Part shown: in pieces, positions 2,444 to 8,463 of the stretch
How the letters are laid out: every line of letters starts with the position of its first letter
How positions within the stretch are numbered: position 1 is the first letter of the stretch
Assembly: GCA_003520425.1 (NCBI GenBank)
Contig: DOUU01000075.1
Span: 1-10,079 of the forward strand
Length of the DNA stretch: 10,079 nt
Reading direction: 5' to 3'
From: Deltaproteobacteria bacterium
Lineage (GTDB): Bacteria > Myxococcota_A > UBA9160
Notes under the pieces: model-generated
What the model saw: the letters and a program-made list of their open reading frames with translations, nothing else
Told to the model about the DNA's origin: nothing
Database searches by the model: none
Program-made: the position numbers and the translations under genes

Positions 2444-3046
2444 GTGACGACCCGCGCCACCAAGACCTCCCGGCCGCTGCGCGGAACCCCCGAAGGCACG
2501 CGCGCGCGCCTCGTGGCGGCCGCCACGCAGGCCTTCAACCGAAGCGGCTACCACGGCACGGACTCAAACCGCATCGCGCAGGCGGCGGGCTACTCCCCCG
2601 GGACCTTCTACAAGCACTTCACGGACAAGCGCGAGATCTTCCTCGCCGCGTTTCAAGACTGGGTGGACGAAGAGTGGCAGGCGATCGAGCGTGAGGTCTT
2701 GAAGGCCCGCGATCCCGAGGCGCTGGCCCGAAGGATCGTGGAGCTCACGCTAAAGCACCACACGCGCTGGCGAGGCTTGCGCGCTTCGATGCTCGGGCTC
2801 GTGGCAAGGGACCCCGTCGTCCGGCGCTTTCACCGCGCCCAGCGCCGCCGGCAGCTCGAGATGTTGGCTGCCCTAAGGCAACGAAGGCGAGCGCCGCCGC
2901 GCCCTCCCGAGGAGGACCTCGTCTTGCTGCTCACGATGGAGCGAACCTGCGACGCGCTCGCGCTGGGCGAGCCGCGCGAGCTTGGCCTCTCCCGCAAGGC
3001 CGTCGTTGAAGCGCTGCGCCGGGCGGTGCGGCGACACGTCTTCTAG
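2444..3046 (+). CDS. TetR/AcrR-family transcriptional regulator
   Basis: DNA-binding repressor of 200 residues, the usual TetR length. The N-terminal helix-turn-helix spans about residues 17-66: TRARLVAAATQAFNRSGYHG, then SNRIAQAAGYSPGTFYKHF with the recognition helix around SPGTFYKHF, and the typical continuation DKREIFLAAF. The C-terminal ligand-binding domain is all-helical and too variable to name a ligand. The start is the GTG at 2444; the nearby ATG at 2427 is followed at once by a stop. It is divergent from the hydrolase-racemase pair, with a 20-bp palindrome in the gap, so it most likely represses that operon and possibly itself. Its end abuts the broken end of the channel remnant. 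The very arginine-rich C-terminal stretch (RFHRAQRRRQ, RQRRRAPPRPP) is a little unusual. Confidence 0.92.
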   Translation: MTTRATKTSRPLRGTPEGTRARLVAAATQAFNRSGYHGTDSNRIAQAAGYSPGTFYKHFTDKREIFLAAFQDWVDEEWQAIEREVLKARDPEALARRIVELTLKHHTRWRGLRASMLGLVARDPVVRRFHRAQRRRQLEMLAALRQRRRAPPRPPEEDLVLLLTMERTCDALALGEPRELGLSRKAVVEALRRAVRRHVF

Positions 3047-3361
3047 TAAGGCGTGCGGGGTACATCACGCCATATCCGATCGCCCCCATGGTCTGCACGC
3101 TGAAGAAGAAGTGGTCCGCCAGGGATCCAAGCCGCGCGCCGGCGACCCGCCGACGGCCACGTAGGCCAACGCAAGGAGAAGGTTGATCACGAGGAACACG
3201 CAACTTACGCCGAGGAGATCGAGCCAGGAGGGGGCGCGCAGCAATTCATGGTAGAGGTCGCGTCCCAGGAGTGGGGGATCAAAGGGAGGCGCGCTCCTTT
3301 CGAGCGCCCCGGGGTCGTCACGCTCTTGCGTCCGAGACGGCTTGATCACCCGTGAGGACAC
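3047..3361 (-). pseudogene. KirBac-type inward-rectifier K+ channel remnant, frameshifted and 3' truncated
   Basis: Only the N-terminal part of a KirBac-like channel is left. From a GTG near 3361, 13 nt after the stop of the upstream gene, one frame gives the slide-helix region GRDLYHELLRAPSWLDLL and the first membrane helix (GVSCVFLVINLLLALAYV). Between about 3150 and 3130 the homology jumps to another frame, consistent with loss of one base, and continues as GSLADHFFFSVQTM and the filter GAIGYGVMYP. In intact channels the filter is T-I/V-G-Y-G; here codon 3083-3081 is GCG (Ala), one base from ACG (Thr). After MYP the homology stops near 3050, where the convergent TetR gene ends, so the second membrane helix and the cytoplasmic beta-rich domain are missing. 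Three independent defects make this a dead gene. It was probably the third gene after ccr and the phosphodiesterase-dipeptidase fusion. Confidence 0.82.
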
Positions 3362-3374
3362 GACCTTCGCGTCC

Positions 3375-4826
3375 TTAGCCTCCGAAGGGCTCGTCGAGGA
3401 GCGGCGCGTTGGCCCACCCCGGATCATCGAAATGCCACCATTCCGTCGGAAGCGGGATAAAGCCTTCCGCGGTCATCGCGTCCTCGAGGATCTTTCGGTT
3501 CCTCAAGGCCGGCTCCGGCAAGTTCATGTAGTCGCGGCGGGCGCGCGCGCTGAAGTCGTCGTGCTTTGTGGGCATTTGCACGGGATTGCCCGCCGTGTCC
3601 ACGAGCGTGACGTCGACGGCGGCGGCGCGGCTGTGCTTGGAGCCGACGCTCGGATCGGCCACGTAGCGCGGATCGGGCAGGAGATCCCACATCCGCTGCT
3701 GGACGGACTGCGGCCGGTAGCAGTCCCACATGCGGAGGCCGAATCCCTCGGCCAAGAGCCGTCGCTGCACACGTGCGAGGCGCTCGGCGACCTCGGCCCG
3801 CAGGAGGCAGCGGTTCACGGGGTAGATCGCCTCTTTCAGGAAGTTGTCGGGCCTTGCGTACCGCATGTCGACCTGGATCGATGGATCCACGTGCGTGATG
3901 TCGCACAGGATGCCCCCAAGGCGCACAAGTCCCTCCATCTCCGGCGGCACCGCCTCGCCCAGGAGGAGCAGCACCGTGGGTGCGGTGTCGAGGATCGTCG
4001 CGTAGGGAATCTTCGCACCGGGCGGCGCCCCGTCTCCCCAAGCAATCCACGGGATGCGCGTATCCTTCGCGAGGTCCGTGCCGTGGCGCGTCCCGTGTCC
4101 TCCGTGGTCGGAGGTCACGATAAGCGTCAGCGGACGGGTCCCGGCTTTCTGTGCCTTCGCGGCGAAAGTCCCGACGAGCGCGTCGACGCGGGCGAGCGCG
4201 TGCAGCTGCGCCTCGCCCCCCCAACCCTCGGAGTGTCCTGCGAGATCGACGTCGGCAATCTGGATCATGACGAAGTCAGGGTCCGCCTGCTGCATCCACG
4301 CAAGGGCACTCCCGAAGACATGGCTCGCATCGCTGTCCAGCTCGTAGTGCTCGACGCCGACCTCGTCGCGGGCAAAGGAGGCGAACTTGGGCTTTCCGGC
4401 GAAGAGCCCGCAGCGCAAGCCCTCGCTCGCGCAGCGTGTGAAGACCGTTTCCGCCCGGATGTGACGCCACGGGAGATACCGGTCCCAGTCGACGCCGTGC
4501 TTTTCGGGCGGGAGTCCGGAGAGCATGCTCGTAGCGGCATTTAACGTGAGCGAGGGGATGACCGTCTCTGCCACCGCCGCCGCCACCCCCTCGCGAGCAA
4601 GGCGCGCGAGATTCGGCTGCGGCGCCCCTTCCAGCACCCAGGCCGCAAGGCCATCGATCAAGATCAGGACCACCCGCCGCGGTGCGGGATGGCGCTCGAG
4701 CGGCGCCGCGCGCTCAATCTTTCGCGGGGCGAAAACATCGAGCACCGGCTCCGTGTCGTACAGGAGAACCGCGAGAATGCCAGCGACCGCCAGGATCGCG
4801 ACGTGCCGGTGCCGAAGGAGTCCCAG
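3375..4826 (-). CDS. fusion of alkaline-phosphatase-superfamily phosphodiesterase domain and VanX-like D-Ala-D-Ala dipeptidase, probably membrane-anchored
   Basis: Two enzymes in one frame. Numbering is from the GTG at 4745 (456 residues). Residues about 22-275 are a type I phosphodiesterase/nucleotide pyrophosphatase domain of the alkaline phosphatase superfamily: metal ligand Asp31 in LILIDGL, likely nucleophile Thr67 in VIPSLTLNAATS, GLPPEKHG, DVDLAGH (165-171), SDHGGHG (Asp213, His214) and His221. Residues about 290-456 are a zinc D-Ala-D-Ala dipeptidase like VanX/DdpX: DCYRP (Arg354), SKHSRAAAVDV (zinc ligands His371 and Asp378) and EWWHFDD (base Glu435, ligand His438). All key residues of both are present. 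Upstream in the same frame lies RHRHVAILAVAGILAVLLYD, a basic stretch plus hydrophobic segment typical of a signal anchor, with no ATG, GTG or TTG before it. The CTG at 4826, 6 nt after AGAGG, is the best start and is used here; the safe start is GTG 4745. It lies 9 nt after ccr in the same direction. Likely extracytoplasmic, acting on cell-wall or lipid phosphodiesters and peptides (inferred). Confidence 0.85.
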   Translation of the reverse strand: MGLLRHRHVAILAVAGILAVLLYDTEPVLDVFAPRKIERAAPLERHPAPRRVVLILIDGLAAWVLEGAPQPNLARLAREGVAAAVAETVIPSLTLNAATSMLSGLPPEKHGVDWDRYLPWRHIRAETVFTRCASEGLRCGLFAGKPKFASFARDEVGVEHYELDSDASHVFGSALAWMQQADPDFVMIQIADVDLAGHSEGWGGEAQLHALARVDALVGTFAAKAQKAGTRPLTLIVTSDHGGHGTRHGTDLAKDTRIPWIAWGDGAPPGAKIPYATILDTAPTVLLLLGEAVPPEMEGLVRLGGILCDITHVDPSIQVDMRYARPDNFLKEAIYPVNRCLLRAEVAERLARVQRRLLAEGFGLRMWDCYRPQSVQQRMWDLLPDPRYVADPSVGSKHSRAAAVDVTLVDTAGNPVQMPTKHDDFSARARRDYMNLPEPALRNRKILEDAMTAEGFIPLPTEWWHFDDPGWANAPLLDEPFGG

Positions 4827-4835
4827 AGCGGGCCT

Positions 4836-6176
4836 CTAGCCCCGGTAAAGGCGGATCCGACCGAGGTGCCTCTCCCGCAGCTCAGGGTTGGTGACGCCCA
4901 GCCCCTCGTGCGGCGCAAGGCAAAGGACGCCGATCTTGCCGTCGTGAACGTTGCGATGGACGTCGAGGGCCGCCTGGCCTGCCTCCTCGAGCGGGTACGC
5001 CTTGGAGAGCGTCGGGTGGATCACGCCCTTGCACACGAGTCGGTTTGCCTCCCAGGCTTCGCGGTAGTTCGCGAAGTGGGAGCCGATGATGCGCTTCAGG
5101 TTCATCCAGAGGTAGCGGTTGTCATAGACATGGTTGTAGCCGCTGGTCGAGGCGCAGGTGACGATCGTTCCGCCGCGCCGCGCGACGAAGACGCTCGTCG
5201 CGAAGGTCTCCCGGCCGGGGTGCTCGAAGACGATGTCGGGATCGTCGCCCCCGCTGAGCTCCCGGATGCGCGCGCCAAAGCGGCGCATCTCCTTCATATT
5301 CATCTCATCGCCACTCCAGAACTTGTAGCCCTCCGTCTTTCGGTCGATCACCCAGTCACAGCCGAGCTTCCGGACGATCTCGGCGCGGTGCGGACTCGAG
5401 ACGACTCCCACCGGATAGGCGCCGCCGTTCAAGGCGTACTGCGTCGCGTAGCCGCCGAGACCCCCCGAGGCACCCCAGATCAGCACCACGTCGCCCTGTT
5501 TCATGGCCCCGCCATGCTTCGATACGAGCTGGCGGTAGGCGGTGGAGTTCACAAGGCCGTTGCAGGCGGCTTCCTCCCAGGTGAGGTGCTCGGGTTTGGG
5601 CATGAGCTGGTTGGCCTTCACAAGGCACAGCTCTGCCAGGCCTCCGAAGTTCGTCTCGAAGCCCCAGATCGTCTGGCCGGGGTCAAGCATCGCGTCGTCG
5701 TGGCCCTCGGGCTCCTCGAGGTCGACGTAGTTGCAGTGAACGACGACGCGATCGCCCGCCTTCCACTTCGAGACTCCGGGCCCCGTTCGCAGCACCACCC
5801 CCGCCGCGTCGCTCCCGAGAATGTGGTAGGGAAGATCGTGACGCTTCCAGAGGGCACTGCGCCGACCGTTGCGCTCGAGGAAGAGGAATGTAGGGAGGGG
5901 CTCGAAGATCGCGGACCAGACCGTGTTGAAGTTGATGGCCGAGGCCATCACCGCAACCAGGGCCTCGCTGGGCCCAAGCTCGGGAAGCGGCACCTCGTCC
6001 ACATGCAAGGACTTGCGCGGATCCTTCTCCGCAGACGGAATCCCTTCGAACAGCTTCTGCTCGTCCCTGTGGGTGGTGGCCGCGCGGAAGGCTTTGGGCA
6101 GGGCGAGCGAGAGGAAGGCCTGCGAGGACGCCCGGCCCTCGATGGCCTCGACGATGGACTGCATGGCTGCGGACAT
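4836..6176 (-). CDS. ccr: crotonyl-CoA carboxylase/reductase
   Basis: Cytosolic NADPH-dependent enzyme that reductively carboxylates crotonyl-CoA with CO2 to (2S)-ethylmalonyl-CoA, the signature step of the ethylmalonyl-CoA pathway. At 446 residues it is full length for a zinc-free medium-chain dehydrogenase of the Ccr group. Residues known to hold CO2 in characterised carboxylating reductases are all present: an Asn in INFNTVW (82 or 84), Phe173-Glu174 in WGFETNFGGLAE, and His367 in GSHFANYREAWEANRL. This favours a true carboxylase over a plain enoyl reductase. The nucleotide-binding motif is WGASGGLGGYA (224-234), and IFEPLPTFLFLER and HPGRETFATSVF are typical. Start ATG at 6176 with GGAG 7 nt upstream. 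It is divergent from the ligase/ferredoxin/lyase operon across 173 bp, so the two units may share control. The fusion gene follows directly downstream, which is not a usual ccr partner. Confidence 0.96.
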   Translation of the reverse strand: MSAAMQSIVEAIEGRASSQAFLSLALPKAFRAATTHRDEQKLFEGIPSAEKDPRKSLHVDEVPLPELGPSEALVAVMASAINFNTVWSAIFEPLPTFLFLERNGRRSALWKRHDLPYHILGSDAAGVVLRTGPGVSKWKAGDRVVVHCNYVDLEEPEGHDDAMLDPGQTIWGFETNFGGLAELCLVKANQLMPKPEHLTWEEAACNGLVNSTAYRQLVSKHGGAMKQGDVVLIWGASGGLGGYATQYALNGGAYPVGVVSSPHRAEIVRKLGCDWVIDRKTEGYKFWSGDEMNMKEMRRFGARIRELSGGDDPDIVFEHPGRETFATSVFVARRGGTIVTCASTSGYNHVYDNRYLWMNLKRIIGSHFANYREAWEANRLVCKGVIHPTLSKAYPLEEAGQAALDVHRNVHDGKIGVLCLAPHEGLGVTNPELRERHLGRIRLYRG

Positions 6177-6267
6177 CAGGGTCTCCGAACGGTGGCGGGT
6201 TGAGGGGGTGCGCCTAGCCGCCCATCCTACCCTACCGGCGGGCTCGGGCGAGGGCTTGGCTTACCGG

Positions 6268-6296
6268 TTGACCCCTTCGCGGAAGCTGATTAGCGT
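6268..6296 (+). promoter_or_regulatory. weak candidate promoter for the ligase-ferredoxin-lyase operon
   Basis: In the 173-bp gap between divergent ccr and the SucC-like gene, TTGACC (6268-6273) is a good -35 match. After 17 nt comes TAGCGT (6291-6296), a poor -10. It is the best pair I see; no convincing promoter for ccr and no clear operator palindrome are visible in the gap. The SucC-like ATG at 6350 has AGAGGA (6340-6345) as its ribosome-binding site. Confidence 0.3.
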
Positions 6297-6349
6297 CCGC
6301 TTTCTCGTCCGCGCGGGGCGGTCCTGCCGCGAGAGCCCCAGAGGACCCC

Positions 6350-7552
6350 ATGCGTTTTTACGAGTACGAGTCGAAGGCCCTCTTCGCCCGCCACGGCCTT
6401 CCCTTAAGCAAAAGCGGCCTCGCCCACTCCCGGGAGGACGCCCGCCGGATCGCCGCCGAGATCGCCGGACCCGTGGTGCTGAAGAGCCAGGTGCTCTCCG
6501 GCGGGCGCATGAAGGCAGGCGCCGTGAAGTTCGCAGACACGCCGGACGAAGCCGCGGCGCACTACGACGCCATCGTGCCGATCGTGGTGAGCGGCCAGAA
6601 GTGCCGCGCCGTGCTCGTGGAGGAGAAGAGCCAGGTCCAGCAGGAGTACTACGCGGGCGTCACCTGGGATGGCCGCCGCAAGCTCCCCGTCGTGATTTTC
6701 AGCGACATGGGCGGGATCGACATTGAGCAGGTGGCCGAGAGGCACCCCGACCACGTCTCGAAGACGCACGCCTCGACGCTTCTCCCGCCCATGCCCTACC
6801 TCGCCAAGGAGGCGGCGGCCAAGACGGGAGTCTCCGGTGCGGATCTCACGCGCCTAGCGCCCATCGTCTCCAGGCTGATCGAGATCTTCTTCCGCTACGA
6901 CCTGACGCTCGCCGAGATCAACCCGCTCGCGAAGCTCGAAGACGGCCGCTTCGTCGTGCTCGACGGCCACGTAGACCTTGAGGGAGACGCGCGGCCGAAG
7001 CACGAAAAGCTCCTCGCCGAGCTCGGGATCCGCCCCGAGGAGACCCGGCAGGCGAGGCCCCCCACCGACTTTGAAGTCCGCGGCGCGCAGGTCGATGCCG
7101 GCGATCACCGCGGTGTCGCGGGCAACGTGGTCGAGTTCGACGGCAACTTGGGTCTCGTGATCGGCGCAGGCGGGGGATCGCTCACGCTCTTTGACGCCGT
7201 TCGCAAGCACGGCGGCCGGCCTGCGAACTACTGCGAGATCGGCGGAAATCCCTCCGTCAAGAAGGCGTGCGCCCTCACTAAGCTCGTGCTCTCGAAGCCC
7301 GGCGTTGAAAAGCTCGCCGTGATGATGAACGTCGTCTCGAATACGCGCGTCGACATCGTGGCGCGGGGAGTCGTCAAGGGCTGCATTGAATCGGGTCGCG
7401 ATCCCGCCAAAACGATCGCGATCTTCCGCATCCCCGGCTCCTGGGAGCAGGAGGGGTTCAAGATCCTGAAGAAGTATGGCGTCGAGTACTGCGATCGGAC
7501 CGTGTCGATGTACGAAGCCGCGGGTCGCGCCGTCATGAAGATGAAGGCCTAG
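6350..7552 (+). CDS. ADP-forming acyl-CoA ligase beta subunit, SucC/MtkA-like
   Basis: Beta subunit of a heterodimeric acid-CoA ligase (succinyl-CoA or malate-CoA type), carrying the ATP-grasp domain; cytosolic. It has 400 residues, against about 390 in SucC and MtkA. The N-terminus MRFYEYESKALFARHGLPL is the standard ATP-grasp start. VVLKSQVLSGGRMKAGAVKF corresponds to the nucleotide-binding segment, and LAEINPLAKL holds the magnesium-binding EINP motif. The C-terminal ligase domain shows GNLGLVIGAGGGSLTLFDAV and NYCEIGGNPS, where typical SucC has a LDVGGGA-type motif. It is therefore a divergent branch and not the housekeeping TCA enzyme. Because a malyl-CoA lyase of the Mcl1 type ends the same operon, malate thiokinase (malate + ATP + CoA to malyl-CoA) is the best guess. 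Succinate or itaconate/citramalate ligases are alternatives. The alpha-subunit gene starts 2 nt after its stop. Confidence 0.88.
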   Translation: MRFYEYESKALFARHGLPLSKSGLAHSREDARRIAAEIAGPVVLKSQVLSGGRMKAGAVKFADTPDEAAAHYDAIVPIVVSGQKCRAVLVEEKSQVQQEYYAGVTWDGRRKLPVVIFSDMGGIDIEQVAERHPDHVSKTHASTLLPPMPYLAKEAAAKTGVSGADLTRLAPIVSRLIEIFFRYDLTLAEINPLAKLEDGRFVVLDGHVDLEGDARPKHEKLLAELGIRPEETRQARPPTDFEVRGAQVDAGDHRGVAGNVVEFDGNLGLVIGAGGGSLTLFDAVRKHGGRPANYCEIGGNPSVKKACALTKLVLSKPGVEKLAVMMNVVSNTRVDIVARGVVKGCIESGRDPAKTIAIFRIPGSWEQEGFKILKKYGVEYCDRTVSMYEAAGRAVMKMKA

Positions 7553-7554
7553 GA

Positions 7555-8463
7555 ATGTCGATCCTGATTCACAAGGACACGACGGTCATCATCCAGGGCA
7601 TTACCGGCCGTGAGGCCGTGAACATGACGCGCGAGGGCCTGAACTACGGAACCAAGATCGTGGGTGGCGTGACACCAGGGCGTGCAGGACGGGACGTCTA
7701 TGGCGTCCCTGTCTACGACTGCGTGCGCGACATTACCTCGAAGACACGGGTCGATGGCTCCATCGTGACGGTGCCCGCGGCCTTCACGCGGGACGCAGTC
7801 TTCGAGGCGATCGAGAACGGGATCAAGCTGGTGGTCGTCGTGACCGAGCGCATCCCTCGCGGCGAGGTCGCGCAGATGGTCGAGCTCGCGCAGCTGCGCG
7901 GCGCGCGCATCATCGGTCCAAACTGCCTCGGCATTCTCTCGCCCGACGAAGCCAAGATGGGCGGCCTGGGAGGCCCGGCCGCGGACGCCCGCAAGGCGTT
8001 CACCAAGGGCCCGATCGGGGTGATGTCGCGCTCGGGGGGGATGACGACCGAGATCTGCAACACGCTCACGGCGGCAGGCCTCGGCCAGTCGACCGCGGTC
8101 TCGATCGGCGGCGACGCCATCATCGGCTCGACCTACGCGGAGCTGATGCCGCTTTTCGAGGCAGACCCCGAGACCAAGGCCATCGCGATCTACTCCGAGC
8201 CTGGCGGCAGGATGGAGGCGGAGCTTGCGGACTGGGTTCGGGAGCACCGCTCGCGCCTGCCGATTGTGGCCTTCATGGCCGGCCGCTTCATGGATGAGAT
8301 GCCGGGCATGCGCTTCGGCCACGCCGGCACGATCGTGGAGGGGAAGGCCGACACCACCGCCGACAAGATCGAGCGCATGCGCGCCGCAGGCATCGCGGTC
8401 GCCGAGCGGATCGAGGAGATCCCGGCGCTCATCCGGCAAGAGCTCGGAAAGCGAGGCGCCTAG
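7555..8463 (+). CDS. ADP-forming acyl-CoA ligase alpha subunit, SucD/MtkB-like
   Basis: Alpha subunit partnering the preceding beta subunit; it binds CoA and carries the phosphohistidine. It has 302 residues, slightly longer than SucD (about 290). The CoA-binding Rossmann part begins [11 protein letters not shown], followed by [15 protein letters not shown] and [29 protein letters not shown] and [19 protein letters not shown] follow the family order. The catalytic histidine is His256 in [13 protein letters not shown]. The loop that in SucD reads GEIGG is YSEPGG here (Glu215 kept). The usual SRSGTLTYE is SRSGGMTTE, and GPNCPG is GPNCLG. Residues for catalysis are intact, so it should be active, but the substitutions set it apart from ordinary SucD and could reflect a different acid substrate. 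Start ATG at 7555; its TAG overlaps the next gene's GTG by one base (TAGTG). Confidence 0.9.

Follow-up and report, generated by a model that had tools for sequence, protein, structure and literature searches.

A conserved protein fusion with phosphodiesterase-like and D-Ala-D-Ala dipeptidase-type halves, encoded beside a crotonyl-CoA carboxylase/reductase gene

The fusion gene and its reading frame

The window (the whole stretch of DNA that was analysed, 10,079 nt) carries on its minus strand a frame that is open from the stop codon of ccr (TAG, nt 4838–4836) to a TAA at nt 3377–3375. It encodes one protein with a phosphodiesterase-like half and a D-Ala-D-Ala dipeptidase-type half (Table 1), and this fusion is real. 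Pfam Phosphodiest (PF01663) matches residues 55–249 of the 486-residue frame (E = 4e-24, far above the cut-off) and Peptidase_M15 (PF01427) matches residues 311–474 (E = 2e-41; 142.2 bits against a cut-off of 27). An AlphaFold model of the 456 residues from GTG 4745, proposed as a check in the initial annotation, gave a pLDDT of 95.4 and a pTM of 0.85. The two domains and the model uphold the earlier description of a single uninterrupted frame with two metalloenzyme folds, while its strand is corrected to minus. The aligned structures listed span model residues 5–324, mostly the phosphodiesterase half, and for the dipeptidase half the fold is supported by sequence and by the model.

Table 1. 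Features of the window. Residue numbers of domains and active sites, here and in the text, count from GTG 4745.
Feature	Position (nt)	Strand	Remarks
Whole fusion frame	3375–4835	−	486 codons plus stop, counted from the ccr stop; coding probably begins at CTG 4826
N-terminal hydrophobic segment	4746–4826	−	17-residue hydropathy 2.24; read as an inner-membrane anchor
NPP-type phosphodiesterase domain	3915–4745	−	Residues 1–277; Pfam, fold, zinc/nucleophile residues
Peptidase_M15 domain (M15D, VanX/DdpX-like)	3378–3911	−	Residues 279–456; R344, H371, D378, E435 and H438 kept
ccr, crotonyl-CoA carboxylase/reductase	4836–6176	−	TIGR01751, 579 bits against 378.55; upstream of the fusion, its stop codon preceding the proposed CTG start by 9 bases
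Succinate/malate-CoA ligase-like beta and alpha subunits	6350–8463	+	Below NCBIfam equivalog cut-offs; divergent neighbours, syntenic marker

The same fusion is present in at least 13 other protein clusters among approximately 5.8 billion proteins searched (11 full or near-full, two partial), as the initial annotation had asked of relatives. Clusters P0002–P0009 and P0013–P0014 share 77–85% identity with the window protein (P0001) and P0010–P0012 share 58–61%; P0013 and P0014, being partial, were assessed on the residues present. Of the 407 matches of an alignment-based search, the best 120, which were listed, contained no more fusion clusters. The window genome is a 512-contig draft, in which an assembly chimera is conceivable, but the 13 other clusters come from several sources and one of them, P0011, sits on a 3.25 Mb contig. 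A chimera is refuted by these data and has practically no probability left; the missed stop or indel that had earlier been named as a possible refutation is ruled out by the fused clusters together with the model. The join is nearly seamless (about 0–5 residues), as the stand-alone phosphodiesterase P0041 ends with 'GRPRL' and the homology of stand-alone dipeptidases begins with 'LVDL', and the linker of 10–15 residues proposed before is too long. No fusion was seen in two other genomes of the family, 78 of the order, 89 of the class and 376 sampled from the phylum (overlapping sets). A scan of genome contigs with the fusion as query gave 82 loci, and the 80 that were listed have their best segments in the dipeptidase half (query residues of at least 243).

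No ATG, GTG or TTG lies 5' of the hydrophobic segment, between the ccr stop and GTG 4745. The latter is the first ordinary start, and the anchor falls outside a protein begun there. The anchor therefore needs a start at CTG 4826, which has AGAGG (nt 4837–4833) six bases upstream and would include the segment; such a non-AUG start, and an inner-membrane anchor, are what we infer for this gene. P0006, P0010 and P0012 have a similar segment (hydropathy of at least 1.6), and so do 35 of the 41 stand-alone phosphodiesterases, where it lies within residues 1–45; the cut is loose, as an inner strand of the window protein begun at GTG 4745 scores just below 1.6. The segment of P0011 scores 0.86, and its called start falls inside it. 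At nt 4824–4838 (minus strand) the fusion and ccr share a reading frame, with the TAG stop alone between them and an apparent CTG start, and several close relatives are likewise called from starts within or past the hydrophobic segment.

Gene neighbourhood

The scanned genes of the window specify Ccr, CoA ligase, HpcH/HpaI, TetR and CoA transferase proteins as well as hydrolases. Of 78 other genomes of the order, 13 have a stand-alone homologue of the phosphodiesterase half (E < 1e-30), and all 13 homologues lie in a similar ethylmalonyl-CoA-type carbon cluster: ten directly 3' of a reductase gene, one beside the reductase on the opposite strand, and two beside a CoA-ligase gene. Of the 13 loci retrieved, 12 include CoA-ligase genes, and some have genes for mesaconyl-CoA hydratase, HpcH/HpaI lyase and transhydrogenase. 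From the synteny of these 13 clusters, the fused gene is the positional counterpart of the cluster phosphodiesterase, to which a dipeptidase has been joined. In the window's family, both remaining genomes carry ccr (84% and 81% identity), and in neither was a close phosphodiesterase found (best match 31% identity).

The reductase beside the stand-alone phosphodiesterases was considered as a Ccr and rejected, being a distant reductase with 23% identity to the window Ccr. Seven of 79 genomes have a Ccr match of E = 1e-80 or better. The distant reductase occurs in 66 of 79 genomes of the order and lies beside CoA-ligase genes in the loci read (window nt 4836–6176 compared with locus L111, nt 6090–7253); the type of reductase has possibly been swapped in this cluster. 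It was also considered whether a phosphodiesterase or a dipeptidase invariably occupies the slot that follows the reductase, and this was rejected, since transhydrogenase or other genes are found there in many genomes. In genome G012 the gene directly 3' of the cluster reductase (locus L132, nt 3840–4586, minus strand) encodes a separate M15 dipeptidase whose start is lipobox-like, and takes the slot held by the phosphodiesterase in ten other genomes; the slot being variable and the case single, this is only suggestive. Downstream of the fusion (nt 2934–3427, minus strand) is a remnant of an inward-rectifier-type potassium channel. Its pore piece (nt 2934–3203) matches KirBac3.1 in one frame (E = 7e-5), the apparent N-terminal part (nt 3068–3427) lies in another frame and was recognised by eye, having no Pfam hit, and the C-terminal part seems to be absent, against the opposite TetR gene.

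Ancestry and active sites of the two halves

In a tree of the 14 fused dipeptidase domains and 86 others, drawn from the protein search matches listed, the fused domains group as a single clade (SH-aLRT 90) beside nine stand-alone proteins (88). A lipobox-like motif opens three of these nine (P0054, P0123, P0124), and the remaining six start with a hydrophobic segment that resembles an anchor. The dipeptidase was therefore probably periplasmic before the fusion. In the phosphodiesterase tree (66 rows) nine close fusions form one clade (100), and the fusions group with the stand-alone proteins P0016, P0019, P0022 and P0024 (93). The fusions do not all fall in one clade in a smaller phosphodiesterase tree, but a single clade is not rejected (p-AU 0.34); there may have been one fusion and a later split, or two fusions. 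The stand-alone P0041, from a 'Myxococcota bacterium', groups with P0048 and the G032 locus of the order at 100, which probably places the order in Myxococcota.

Two stand-alone phosphodiesterases and two stand-alone dipeptidases have longest contigs of equal size, namely P0019 and P0054 (2221) and P0024 and P0123 (7106), and both pairs, which come from the same source, would fit on these contigs. The 41 × 85 comparisons gave three equal pairs, one of them impossible by size and two feasible, while 120 shifted comparisons gave 0.125 equal-size matches on average and 2 at the highest. As the four proteins also fall in matching small clades, the two pairs would represent unfused genes on the same contig.

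All the residues named in the initial annotation were found: D31, T67, D165, D167, H171, D213, H214 and H221 in the phosphodiesterase half, and R344, H371, D378, E435 and H438 in the dipeptidase half. D165 is no family residue, being Glu in most relatives. The claim of two complete sets holds for the five dipeptidase residues and for the phosphodiesterase zinc ligands and Thr nucleophile (D31, T67, D167, H171, D213, H214, H221); it does not hold for the phosphodiesterase as a whole, in which N88, H71 and H162 are missing and which is eroding within the clade. The window protein keeps 48 of 52 near-invariant residues, the losses being S29L, N88D, H71A and H162Q. The seven zinc/nucleophile residues, H71 and H162 are invariant in the 41 stand-alone proteins, and the phosphate-binding Asn at nucleophile +21, D88 in the window, is N88 in 40 of them. 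We know of no tested role for H71 or H162. The same ten residues are intact in 12 of 13 loci checked in the order. The exception, the stand-alone L110, lost D31, H71, N88 and H162, three of these losses being common to the window, so erosion also occurs outside fusions. L110 is the first copy of a tandem pair of stand-alone phosphodiesterases in genome G075 (locus L113, nt 4837–6669, plus strand), the second copy of which is intact, and is a possible parallel pseudoenzyme.

The close clade has 11 proteins, of which only the window protein and P0004 keep all seven zinc/nucleophile residues. The other nine are altered: P0002 (T67A, H171R), P0003 (D213A), P0005 (T67S, H171E, D213G), P0006 (D31E, T67S, D167E), P0007 and P0009 (both T67S, D167T, H171R, H221Y), P0008 (H171R, H221Q), P0013 (D167E, H171R, H221Y) and P0014 (D167E, H171L, H221Y). 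At eight strict positions (these seven residues and N88), the nine longer close fusions lost 23 of 72 cells, compared with 38 of 394 at the other invariant positions (Fisher p = 3e-6, which overstates the significance because the rows are related). Losses at the strict positions number 0 of 24 in the three distant fusions and 1 of 328 in the 41 stand-alone proteins, which themselves define the invariant set. The fewest changes required on the tree, from which the active-site columns were not removed, are three for T67, two each for N88, D167, D213 and H221, one each for D31 and H171, and none for H214. Mean identity among P0001–P0007 is 87.3% in the dipeptidase domain versus 75.8% in the phosphodiesterase domain. 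Judged from these sequences, the phosphodiesterase half of the close clade is keeping its predicted fold while losing catalytic residues. The distant fusions P0010–P0012 retain 50–52 of the 52 invariant residues, and with these intact the ancestral fusion was probably bifunctional.

Mutants of related enzymes, as given in excerpts of one report (PMC9173814), help to interpret these losses. The zinc residues of mouse ENPP1 are listed there as D200, T238, D358, H362, D405, H406 and H517; mutation of N259 inhibited activity toward both substrates, with T238A as a negative control, and the H214A mutant of Xac NPP degraded ATP several-fold above the wild type. Residue 88 stands at nucleophile +21 like ENPP1 N259, and H171 corresponds to H214 of Xac NPP. 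By these mutants, T67A and the loss of D213 are probably inactivating, whereas the loss of H171 alone need not be. The window phosphodiesterase, with N88D, is by analogy probably weakened; since the window protein and P0004 keep the seven zinc/nucleophile residues, it may still work.

The dipeptidase half differs in that its His-Asp-His zinc site (H371, D378, H438), E435 and R344 are intact in all 14 fusions. The Gly of the SxHxxG stretch, which is no catalytic residue, is A374 in the window and Ala throughout the close clade, but Gly in 83 of 86 others. The domain scores below the cut-offs of both the DdpX-type equivalog NF007557 (165.3 of 176 bits) and the VanX equivalog NF033115 (72.1 of 320 bits), which makes its substrate uncertain. 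M15 domains above cut-off occur in six of 79 genomes of the order, including the window genome, and the stand-alone dipeptidase type in ten of 377 genomes of the phylum sample, none with more than 51% identity except the window's. A search of the window genome for D-Ala-D-Ala ligase gave sub-cut-off matches only.

Proposed role and related systems

On balance, the protein is probably an anchored periplasmic D,D-dipeptidase whose phosphodiesterase half is turning into a non-catalytic anchor or binding domain. This reading builds on the computed fusion, conservation, predicted fold, residue pattern and synteny, and extends from them to location, activity loss, substrate and physiological role. 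A stand-alone, anchored NPP-type phosphodiesterase of an ethylmalonyl-CoA-type cluster would have been fused to a zinc M15D D,D-dipeptidase, giving a protein tethered in the inner membrane and facing the periplasm. Only about 27 residues, with a single hydrophobic segment, precede the phosphodiesterase domain, and an envelope location is likely. The anchor and envelope location of the initial annotation thus survive, given this segment and the lipobox- or anchor-like starts of the sister dipeptidases, with the qualification that the segment requires the CTG start. The C-terminal dipeptidase would be the working enzyme in this clade, with H371, D378 and H438 presumably holding the zinc, E435 acting as base and R344 stabilising, and would cleave periplasmic D-Ala-D-Ala, or another free dipeptide like it, so that the amino acids are reused. 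The N-terminal half keeps fold and zinc ligands in the window, but its hydrolysis of phosphodiesters would most likely be poor or nil because of N88D, at the phosphate-holding residue, along with H71A and H162Q; it would now act as an anchor in the membrane, a spacer or a ligand-binding regulator. A narrower version, which we put forward tentatively, is a lineage-specific pseudo-phosphodiesterase in which catalytic residues were lost repeatedly after the fusion while the scaffold was kept, leaving a membrane-side binding domain that positions or regulates the dipeptidase, as proposed for PbgA/YejM.

Both halves may instead be active, the protein being a periplasmic scavenger that salvages phosphate-containing and peptidic debris by hydrolysing nucleotides or glycerophosphodiesters and D-Ala-D-Ala. 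The intact zinc/nucleophile residues of the window protein and P0004, the well-preserved P0010–P0012 with their probably bifunctional ancestor, and the two possible unfused pairs, which suggest that the activities are jointly useful, fit such an enzyme, but N88D, H71A and H162Q in the window and the altered zinc ligands or nucleophile in nine of 11 close fusions make it rather unlikely. The wall-turnover or glycopeptide-tolerance enzyme of the initial annotation, removing D-Ala-D-Ala in the manner of VanX, is improbable. Its M15D catalytic set is intact and aligns to residues 14–185 of VanX (1r44), but the VanX equivalog score is far from the cut-off and no vanH/vanA-like gene is among the scanned window genes. 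VanX works in the cytoplasm on the precursor pool, while the fusion probably faces the periplasm. With carbon-metabolism genes as neighbours and a host that is probably a relative of Myxococcota, neither glycopeptide tolerance nor teichoic acid turnover finds support. A protein begun at GTG 4745 would lack the anchor and be cytoplasmic, translationally coupled to ccr. That codon is the first ordinary start, and the called starts of P0002–P0005 and P0007 likewise lie there or shortly before it, but the hydrophobic segments of P0006, P0010, P0012 and 35 of 41 stand-alone relatives, as well as the starts of the nine sister dipeptidases, leave a cytoplasmic protein with a low probability. The anchored dipeptidase with a fading phosphodiesterase half is thus preferred. 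The family would then trace an apparently rarely seen series, from separate envelope genes to a fusion and on to the loss of one active site within a retained fold. Should the phosphodiesterase half be dead, the family would be a natural series in which to test the change from enzyme to scaffold or sensor; if it is alive, hydrolysis of phosphodiesters and of D-Ala-D-Ala would share one anchor beside a carbon-assimilation cluster.

No published description of the phosphodiesterase-dipeptidase architecture was found in the open-licence literature, and no such fusion is named in the titles or opening abstract text of the ten listed of 32 open-licence papers on VanX homologues. For the phosphodiesterase half, the closest systems are Xanthomonas NPP (2gsn, 7mw8) and mammalian ENPP1/ENPP7 of the alkaline phosphatase superfamily, from which the window protein differs in being approximately 100 residues shorter from DHG to the last zinc His, in the Asp that replaces Asn at nucleophile +21, and in the fused peptidase. 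The zinc ligands, catalytic Glu and Arg of VanX align with the window dipeptidase, as do a Ser and an Asp that we take to be VanX substrate-pocket residues. Unlike VanX/DdpX-type enzymes, the window dipeptidase is tethered behind a phosphodiesterase domain, is below both NCBIfam cut-offs and has Ala in place of G374. Other proteins combine M15D with a different partner, namely P0059, P0068 and P0100 (YkuD-like, just under the cut-off), P0120 (TPR) and P0098 (Colicin V production), with M15 first in all except P0098. PbgA/YejM (6vc7 and 6v8q, Foldseek matches to the model) likewise has a membrane-attached periplasmic domain of the alkaline phosphatase superfamily. Excerpts of one report describe it as lacking the typical catalytic residues of the superfamily and serving the envelope (PMC7018646); this inactivity is disputed, as YejM is called a metalloenzyme in the title of another (PMC7576196). 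It differs in its multi-helix membrane part, for which the N-terminus of the window protein tested negative, and in having no peptidase. The nearest physiological parallel for the fusion dipeptidase is the ddpX operon of E. coli, where, in the excerpted text of PMC8743547, such a dipeptidase is paired with a D-Ala-D-Ala transporter. The families of both halves are known.
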